From Mycobacteriales bacterium (lineage in GTDB: Bacteria > Actinomycetota > Actinomycetes > JAFAQI01), in NCBI GenBank assembly GCA_035550055.1, contig DASZRO010000067.1:1-42054 (forward strand): DNA of 42,054 bases, written 5' to 3'. Positions 25,986-28,739 of this stretch are shown in pieces. The notes under the pieces are model-generated. The model was not told the origin of the DNA, made no database searches, and saw only the letters and a list, made by a program, of their open reading frames with translations. Position numbers and translations under genes: made by a program. Within the stretch, counting starts at the first letter, position 1, and each line of letters opens with the position of its first letter.

Positions 25986-27194
25986 CTAACGGTAGGGGAC
26001 CTCGCTCCAGGTACGGCCGCTGTCGTAGCTGGTGACGAACGCCGGCGAGGTGTCGCTGGTCACGCCGACGATGTGGCTGGGGCTGATGTAGGCCGCAAAC
26101 GTGACGATGCCCGGCACGTCCGCACGGGTCCACCGGTGGCCGTGGACATAGGTGAGGTACGGCGCGCCCAGACCAGTGGTGACGAGCAGGTCGTCAGCGG
26201 TCCCGGCCGACAGCGTCCCGACGGCGGCGCGAACGTGCGGCAGGTTGGCGATGTTGGTCCAGTGCCGGCCGGAGTCGACCGACTCGAACAGGCTGCCGAT
26301 TCCGCGGACCGGTGTGCACTCGGCGGCCAGCCCGTTCTGGCTCCACGCCGCAAAGGCCTGGCTCTCGCCGAGGCACGGGTTCGTCTCGTGCCGCCAGCTG
26401 TAGCCGTCGTCGTCCGTTGCCCACAGATCCTTGCCGCCGGTGACGTAGATCGCGTGGCCGCGAAGCGTCAGGGTCGCGTCGTAGCTGTCGACCGGTTTGA
26501 CCGACGACACCCGGACGAGCTGCGGCGAGGTGAGCGTGGCCTGGAACAGTCGCAGTCGCGCGCAGCGGGCACACGAGCGGACCAGCGCCCAGACGACGCC
26601 GTGCGCGGTTTCGAGATCCGCGATGTAGCCGGGACTGGGCAGCGTGTGCCAGGTCAGGCCGCCGTCGTCCGTGGACTGGTAGTCGGCACCGAAGCTGAAG
26701 CCCTGGTCCGCGTCGGCGAACCGCACGGTGCCTTGGGGCGCGGGACGGGGAGTCTCGATCGACCACGTCGTCCCGCCGTCGGTGGTGCGGGCGAGGCCGC
26801 CGACGACGGTGCCGCCCGGGACTTCCAGGCCGCCGGTGACCCAGCCTTCGGACTGCGTCACGAAGCTGACGGAGGCAGGTACCAGCAGCGACAACGCCGG
26901 ATGTACGACGAGGTCGCCCTCGCCGCCGTCGAGCGAGTCCGGGGTGTCGCTTTGCCTCGCGGCGGCGACCTGCAGCTTCTGGTCACTGCTGGACTTGTGC
27001 AGCGAGACGAGGGCGGGGGCTGCTGCGCCGACGACGACGAGACTCACCGCGCCCGCCAGAGCCGACTTCATGCGCCGACGCCGGCGGCCGCGGCGCCGGA
27101 TCGCCTCCCAGGCGCCGGGTGGCGGGGCGAGCTCGTCACCTCGCCCGCGCAGCAGCGAGTCGAAGTCGAGGTCGGGCCCGAGGTCGTCGCTCAT
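25986..27194 (-). CDS. Membrane-anchored Asp-box (BNR/Ycf48-like) propeller protein
   Basis: A 402-residue protein. Residues 1-41 are cytoplasmic and end in a run of arginines; residues about 43-65 form one transmembrane helix; the rest is outside. The external part has five Asp-box-like repeats: TTDGGTTWS, STDDGGLTWH, ATDDDGYSWR, SVDSGRHWT and SYDSGRTWS, typical of sialidase/Ycf48-type beta-propellers. No sialidase catalytic residues are evident. Its ATG overlaps the stop of the ECF sigma gene (ATGA), so it may act as the sigma factor's membrane partner. The cytoplasmic tail lacks the H-x3-C-x2-C anti-sigma motif, so that role is inferred from position. Confidence 0.82.
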   Translation of the reverse strand: MSDDLGPDLDFDSLLRGRGDELAPPPGAWEAIRRRGRRRRRMKSALAGAVSLVVVGAAAPALVSLHKSSSDQKLQVAAARQSDTPDSLDGGEGDLVVHPALSLLVPASVSFVTQSEGWVTGGLEVPGGTVVGGLARTTDGGTTWSIETPRPAPQGTVRFADADQGFSFGADYQSTDDGGLTWHTLPSPGYIADLETAHGVVWALVRSCARCARLRLFQATLTSPQLVRVSSVKPVDSYDATLTLRGHAIYVTGGKDLWATDDDGYSWRHETNPCLGESQAFAAWSQNGLAAECTPVRGIGSLFESVDSGRHWTNIANLPHVRAAVGTLSAGTADDLLVTTGLGAPYLTYVHGHRWTRADVPGIVTFAAYISPSHIVGVTSDTSPAFVTSYDSGRTWSEVPYR

Positions 27195-27658
27195 CGCGAG
27201 TCCTCGAGCAGCGCCTGCAGCCTCGCCCGTGCGTCGTACAGGTCGCGCTTCACAGTGCCCGGAGCGACGCCGAGCTGGCGGGCGATGCCGTCGACCGGGA
27301 GGTCCGCGAAGTAGTGGAGGACGACGACCTGTGCCAGCCGGCGGGGCAGGCTCTCCACGAGCATCCGGATCTCGGGCGCCGGCTCGGTGGGCGCGGTAGC
27401 GGTGGCGGTCGCCGTCTTGCGCAGCGCGACGCGCTCCCGCTCGCTGCGCCGCCACCGGTCACGGATCAGGTTCAGCGCGGTCGTGTAGAGATAGGCGCGG
27501 GGATCCTGGACTGCGCTCCAGCGGCCGAGGAGTCGCGCGAACGCTTCGGCGGCGATGTCGTGGGCCGCCTCGTCGTCACCGACCATCCGGCGACACCAGC
27601 CGGCGAGGGGGGCGTAGTGAGCTCGAAAGATCGCCTCACCGGTCGGCGCGGCGTCCAC
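27191..27658 (-). CDS. ECF-family RNA polymerase sigma factor
   Basis: From GTG 27658 the protein has 155 residues. Region 2 contains FRAHYAPLAGWCRRMVGD, DIAAEAFARLLGRW and DPRAYLYTTALNLIRDRWRR; after a short linker, region 4 has LPRRLAQVVVLHYFADLPVDGIARQLGVAPGTVKRDLYDARARL with its helix-turn-helix. It directs transcription of a small regulon from ECF-type promoters. GTG 27658 is preceded by GGAGG five bases upstream; a GTG at 27718 would add 20 residues unlike any sigma factor. The gene is coupled by ATGA to the membrane-anchored Asp-box protein. Confidence 0.9.
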   Translation of the reverse strand: MDAAPTGEAIFRAHYAPLAGWCRRMVGDDEAAHDIAAEAFARLLGRWSAVQDPRAYLYTTALNLIRDRWRRSERERVALRKTATATATAPTEPAPEIRMLVESLPRRLAQVVVLHYFADLPVDGIARQLGVAPGTVKRDLYDARARLQALLEDSR

Positions 27659-27758
27659 GGCACCCTCCACCACTGACCGGGGACACCCAGTATCGAGCAC
27701 CGCGACAGCGACGTTCACGATCTTCAGACGGTCGAGGCGACGGTTCGGTTGGGGCCGA

Positions 27759-28739
27759 CTACTGGACGGTCAGCACAACCTTGCCGATGTGCTGGTTGCT
27801 GGCGACGAGCAGGTGCGCTTCAGCCACCTGGTTCATCCGCAACGTCGTGTGTACGACGGGCTTCACGCGTCCGTCGGCGATCATCGGCCACAGGCCGTCG
27901 ACGACCGCAGCGCAGATGTCGGCCTTCTCGTCGAGCGGCCGGGCGCGAAGCGATGTCGCGTGGATGGTCGCTCGCTTGGTCAGCAGGCTGCTGAGGTTGA
28001 GCTCGGCCTGCGTCCCACCCTGCAGCCCGATGATCACCAGCTGACCGTTCGCGGCGAGCGCGCTGACGTTGCGTTCGAGGTAGGCCGCGCCCATGATGTC
28101 GAGAATCACGTCGGCTCCGCGGCCGTTGGTGGCCTCGAGTGTGGCGTCGACGAAGTCTTCGTCGCGGTAGCTGATCGCGACGTGTGCGCCCAGCTCGCGG
28201 CAACGCTCGACCTTCTCCGCGGGGCCCGCGGTTGCAACGACGTTGGCGCCCAGGGCGCGGGCCACCTGAATCGCCATCGTGCCGATGCCGCTGGCGCCGC
28301 CGTGGACCAACAGGGTCTGGCCCGCGGTGAGCCGGGCGATCATCACCAGGTTCGACCAGACGGTCGCGCACACTTCCGGAAGTGAGCCGGCGGTGACGAG
28401 GTCGACCCCGGCGGGGACCGGCATCACCTGCCCTTCGGCGGCGACTGCGAGCTCCGCCTGCCCACCGCCCGCGAGCAGCGCGCACACCTCATCGCCCACC
28501 GCCCATCGATTGACGCCCTCGCCGACCGCGACCACACGCCCGCTGCATTCCAGCCCGAGCACGTCGGTGACCCCTGGCGGCGGTGGGTAGACGCCGAGGC
28601 GCTGAAGGAGGTCGGCGCGGTTCACCGCACTGGCGACCACTTCGATCAGGACCTCGCCCGGGCCGGCCTCGGGATCGTCGTGCTGGCTCCAGTGCAGGAC
28701 GGCGATGTCGCCGGCGCCGCTGCAGTGCACCGCCTTCAC
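27759..28739 (-). CDS. NAD(P)H-dependent quinone oxidoreductase (PIG3-like MDR)
   Basis: A 326-residue medium-chain dehydrogenase/reductase without the catalytic zinc ligands. Marks are SAVNRADLLQRLGVYPPPPG (family substrate loop), LGLECSGRVVAVGEGV, and the cofactor loop VHGGASGIGTMAIQVARALGA. PIG3-type enzymes reduce quinones with NADPH. GTG 28739 gives the usual N-terminus (VKAVHCSGAGD); the frame is open 16 codons further, which would add an unlikely MLLRTRT leader. It is divergent from the PucR-type regulator with 99 bp between start codons, so that regulator may control it. Confidence 0.9.
   Translation of the reverse strand: MKAVHCSGAGDIAVLHWSQHDDPEAGPGEVLIEVVASAVNRADLLQRLGVYPPPPGVTDVLGLECSGRVVAVGEGVNRWAVGDEVCALLAGGGQAELAVAAEGQVMPVPAGVDLVTAGSLPEVCATVWSNLVMIARLTAGQTLLVHGGASGIGTMAIQVARALGANVVATAGPAEKVERCRELGAHVAISYRDEDFVDATLEATNGRGADVILDIMGAAYLERNVSALAANGQLVIIGLQGGTQAELNLSSLLTKRATIHATSLRARPLDEKADICAAVVDGLWPMIADGRVKPVVHTTLRMNQVAEAHLLVASNQHIGKVVLTVQ

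Follow-up and report, generated by a model that had tools for sequence, protein, structure and literature searches.

Which part of a membrane protein could control an ECF sigma factor when the place usually taken by an anti-sigma gene is occupied by an Asp-box propeller? We addressed this question for a gene pair on the minus strand of a 42,054-nucleotide stretch of DNA (the window) from a Mycobacteriales bacterium, described as a soil actinobacterium. An initial annotation had proposed that the propeller senses an external ligand and controls the sigma factor through an unusual short tail. Class I anti-sigma neighbours are found for only about a third of classified ECFs (PMC7406223), so that the regulator of many ECFs is unknown.

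An ECF sigma gene overlaps the gene of a single-pass membrane protein

The sigma gene (27191-27718, minus strand) encodes a SigE-like protein of 175 aa in which sigma2 and sigma4 are the only domains (Pfam Sigma70_r2, 1.4e-12; Sigma70_r4_2, 2.4e-13), as in an ECF sigma factor. Its top NCBIfam model is TIGR02983 (SigE family) with 97.9 bits, below the membership cut-off of 141.55 bits, a threshold that the sigma factors next to several related tails do exceed. The GTG at 27718 (MNVAV...) was preferred as start because a relative of the same family has the same start, and it replaces the gene end at 27658 implied earlier. Upstream DNA, for which two sequences only could be aligned, contained no clear ECF promoter motif.

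The sigma stop and the partner start share an ATGA (27191-27194, minus strand), an overlap which is also present in L010, L011, L012 and many other loci and which suggests translational coupling. The partner gene, read from the ATG at 27194 to the stop at 25986 (25986-27194, minus strand), thus directly follows the sigma gene in the position of an anti-sigma factor, as had been claimed. Sigma and partner are kept together in one same-genus genome and in three genomes from other genera within the family. Just upstream of sigma lies a gene for a zinc-type alcohol dehydrogenase (27759-28739, minus strand), which is kept in four relatives (L206-L209) and may belong to one unit with the pair. Bpa and BacA were rejected as functional parts, as other genes intervene in relatives.

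The partner is a candidate anti-sigma factor of 402 aa, consisting of a tail, a membrane segment and an Asp-box propeller. The cytoplasmic tail (residues 1-41; 27072-27194, minus strand), defined by alignments A1 and A7 and by its linkage to sigma genes, is followed by a transmembrane segment (residues 42-63; 27006-27071, minus strand; placed by hydrophobicity and alignment), which coincides with the one hydrophobic segment of the protein (about residues 45-63), and by a poorly conserved extracytoplasmic linker (residues 64-100; 26895-27005, minus strand; identity to family relatives 8-32%, model pLDDT <50 up to residue 95). Residues 1-44 hold 11 Arg+Lys against 8 Asp+Glu, and neither His, Cys nor an HxxxCxxC motif was found in them. 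The initial description of the partner as a single-pass protein with a 41-residue Arg-rich tail and no zinc-binding anti-sigma motif was therefore correct.

In the window, the tail contains in this order a hydrophobic stretch around FDSLL, a Pro turn (LAPPP), the stretch AWEAI and Arg residues clustered at the membrane. Alignments showed the same order in tail relatives, with two stretches, of which the first is hydrophobic, separated by an often Pro-rich turn and followed by the Arg cluster. The median tail length ahead of the membrane is 44 residues over 119 loci with a tail, some of which are repeats. At about residues 56-63, where the membrane segment approaches its outer end, the partner has GAAAPALV, and many tail relatives show a GTAVPALV-like pattern there; this pattern may facilitate cleavage within the membrane or resemble the end of a signal peptide.

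The ectodomain is an Asp-box propeller

Residues 101-402 (25989-26894, minus strand) form an Asp-box beta-propeller, as judged from pLDDT (mostly >85 in the AlphaFold model of the partner), profile and Foldseek. The strict pattern S/T-x-D-x-G-x-x-W occurs five times: TTDGGTTW at residue 137 (26763-26786), TDDGGLTW at residue 175 (26649-26672), TDDDGYSW at residue 260 (26394-26417), SVDSGRHW at residue 305 (26259-26282) and SYDSGRTW at residue 389 (26007-26030), all on the minus strand. Shuffled ectodomains held 0.03 boxes on average and 1 at most, so that all five external repeats of the initial annotation stand; at a sixth position the box is degenerate in the window (YVHGHRW) and fuller in some relatives. 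Single-sequence Pfam propeller scores were below cut-offs, and a propeller profile of 14 relatives matched solved GH74 enzymes, Ycf48 and sortilin. Foldseek with the partner model ranked Ycf48 first and also matched GH74 and sortilin. The repeated boxes thus sit on a propeller fold, with a predicted number of about seven blades that is read from length and nearest fold rather than from coordinates. Among the 14 propeller relatives C293 is invariant and C274 nearly so, and an external C274-C293 disulphide is possible. Ycf48/HCF136 and DAIP are Asp-box propellers of the same fold; no sigma factor linkage is known for them.

The tail is linked to ECF sigma genes across the class

In a first search, some partner relatives matched in the tail and membrane segment only, had other ectodomains and yet carried a sigma gene upstream. 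A tail-plus-membrane profile was built from eight N-termini picked because they resemble the partner; that sigma genes adjoin them was known beforehand but was not a selection criterion. Among 394 genomes of the class, 145 had a match to this profile at E <= 0.001. We inspected 130 matches: the 30 best, 80 from the next ranks (those passed over mostly duplicated a genome or genus that had been included before) and 20 weaker ones hand-picked for diversity. In 127 of them (summed by hand; the 130 include a few close relatives that supplied profile seeds) an ECF sigma gene immediately precedes the tail in the same orientation, frequently with an ATGA overlap: all 30 of the best, 79 of the 80 (the remaining one being at a contig end) and 18 of the 20 weaker matches. 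The order is reversed in the other two weaker matches (L151 and L160), where the tail protein is followed directly downstream by the sigma gene, as judged from ORF positions. In six loci the tail was placed by the coordinates of the original profile match, as the re-search missed it. Seven loci of the set of 80 have the match at least 270 bases from the sigma end because the partner's longer N-terminus itself starts at the overlap. In L089 the tail frame is shifted relative to close relatives, the first tail part is lost, and sigma and partner are thus in frame; a sequencing error or a decaying gene would explain it.

In the window's own genome, where the background is 26 matches to sigma region 2 over 3.5 Mb, the three top-scoring tail matches lie next to sigma genes, unlike the three weaker ones, whose E values are above 0.007. 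Besides the partner in the window, this genome has tail-bearing proteins adjoining sigma genes in L211 and L212 (contig C47).

Could a short and compositionally biased profile have collected Arg-rich plus Ala/Val-rich N-termini by composition, the sigma association being a by-product of gene order? Weaker matches do share just scattered positions. However, matches of that origin should fall anywhere, yet 129 of the 130 adjoin an ECF sigma gene and the weakest matches in the window's own genome do not; this explanation is hardly credible.

The initial proposal of control by a short tail is supported insofar as it is the tail that accompanies the sigma gene from genome to genome, while the word "unusual" has to be dropped: the same kind of tail is present in more than a third of the genomes sampled, mostly under other ectodomains, and the short-tail arrangement is common.

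Adjacency shows a functional association of tail and sigma, not the sign of regulation. The linkage data fit a short anti-sigma domain at the membrane that can be combined with different sensors, and they also fit a tail that binds sigma as a positive partner or as a membrane tether for its activity or stability, rather than as a plain inhibitor. For the latter there is a precedent in RskA, described as a dual activator-inhibitor (PMC7509140); membrane partners encoded together with an ECF, on the other hand, most commonly act as inhibitors (PMC8999054), and we regard a positive role as unlikely.

The outer domain varies while the tail is kept

Beneath a common tail type the outer parts differ widely: Asp-box propellers (L073, L119), Germane plus Gmad2 (L100), Pro-rich short segments (L019), domains without Pfam match, and long, apparently doubled propellers (L014, L015, L168). 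With increasing distance the tail remains more similar than the propeller (48% vs 34% identity for L012 and L013; 44% vs 26% for L017).

A small reciprocal comparison of 12 plus 3 propeller relatives (L169-L171 left out) found a sigma neighbour in 12 of 12 with the tail and in 0 of 3 without it (L018, L022, L025), the latter having lipoprotein-like starts. A propeller conserved without the sigma gene, which would count against the initial proposal, does therefore exist, but among tail-less, lipoprotein-like relatives only, which favours the tail as the coupling element. Thus the sigma gene is tracked by the tail and not by the propeller.

The same observations bear on whether the partner is a target of the sigma factor or an operon passenger, i.e., an adhesin- or glycosidase-like propeller, secreted or membrane-bound, whose Arg-rich stretch is a long n-region of a signal sequence. 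An Arg-rich stretch followed by a hydrophobic one with a small-residue end (AAAPA) can be read in this way, and secreted enzymes include Asp-box propellers. Against this, the tail profile is found beside sigma genes under unrelated ectodomains, and no sigma gene adjoins the lipoprotein-like relatives that have the propeller but not the tail; the passenger explanation appears quite improbable, somewhat more so than a positive role of the tail. A pair of sensor and switch is probable instead, given that the same tail stands beside sigma genes under quite different outer parts.

Structural models of sigma and tail

A sigma-tail fusion was modelled with AlphaFold2 from a relative (L122) whose two genes are in the same frame, the intervening TAG being read as Gln; this read-through was a modelling device and implies nothing about the organism, and the window's own two genes are in different frames. 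In the fusion model the sigma part was mostly at pLDDT >90 and the tail at 53-65, with two helical stretches of low confidence; in the model of the window's partner (P0001) the tail had a pLDDT <60. The sigma part of L122 superposed on CnrY-bound CnrH (4cxf) at 3.6 A and on NepR-bound RpoE (5uxx) at 4.0 A, and its best superpositions were on compact, anti-sigma-bound sigma factors, a form that AlphaFold may favour anyway.

A proposed sensor-and-switch mechanism

The partner is, in our judgement, likely to be an anti-sigma factor anchored in the membrane, with a short tail and a propeller sensor. In the proposed mechanism, i) the ~41-residue tail would bind the co-translated ECF sigma factor and hold it inactive at the membrane; ii) the propeller outside would sense a ligand, the state of the cell wall or a partner protein; and iii) the signal would cause release or degradation of the tail, possibly by regulated intramembrane proteolysis, and thereby free sigma. 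The proteolytic step is suggested by RsdA and others (PMC11175481), and the genome has two site-2 protease candidates.

A tail that marks such partners whatever their outer domain would make many actinobacterial sigma factors accessible to study. Moreover, tail and sensor appear exchangeable, and so short a tail would show how little protein suffices to hold an ECF.

Comparison with known anti-sigma factors

Neither Pfam nor NCBIfam has a model for the tail or for the tested partners, beyond known ectodomains and weak propeller hits. The tail profile, searched against the chains of solved structures up to E 10, had no sequence match, hence none to solved anti-sigma chains, and 55 tails searched against the Pfam anti-sigma domain models likewise gave no match. 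The tail lacks the HxxxCxxC of the zinc anti-sigma domain (ZAS). At 41 aa, and with no Pfam anti-sigma model among the 55 tails, it also falls outside class I, whose domain has about 101 residues on average (PMC7406223).

Class II domains, such as CnrY of Cupriavidus and NepR, are small and embrace sigma2 and sigma4 with two helices (PMC7406223, PMC4598750). The tail is likewise short, its 41 residues lying within the class II size (a cytosolic segment of <50 residues before a single transmembrane segment), and CnrY is membrane-associated as well (PMC7406223, PMC4598750). Unlike CnrY and NepR, however, the window protein carries a propeller (other ectodomains in its relatives) and has Arg residues clustered next to the membrane, and its tail has no sequence similarity to either among solved chains up to E 10.

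RsdA, the anti-sigma D of Mycobacteriales, is membrane-anchored and released by MarP, Rip1 and ClpXP (PMC11175481). It thus resembles the candidate partner as a membrane-anchored protein of an actinobacterial ECF, but the tail profile did not match the SigD4-RsdA entry 3vep, nor did any of the 55 tails match a Pfam anti-sigma model. RsbN, the anti-BldN of Streptomyces, is membrane-anchored too and is assigned to class III, being neither class I nor class II (PMC8103513, PMC7406223). RsbN binds with three helices. The tail profile has no match among solved chains, and for the sigma factors here TIGR02983, not the BldN model, gives the best score. A tentative possibility, which we consider somewhat less probable than its opposite, is that the tail, present in over one third of the sampled genomes, represents an additional structural class among anti-sigma domains, or else a branch of class II in actinobacteria, and serves as an exchangeable switch connected to many different external sensors.

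Unnamed transmembrane partners of Streptomyces ECFs include RS00065 of S. venezuelae, a co-transcribed single-TM ECF partner regarded as a plausible membrane-embedded anti-sigma factor of unknown family (PMC11256431). It has 102 aa, and its description mentions no propeller. As suspected single-TM anti-sigma partners have thus already been published (PMC11256431), the main contribution of this analysis is the family-wide linkage of the tail to sigma genes.
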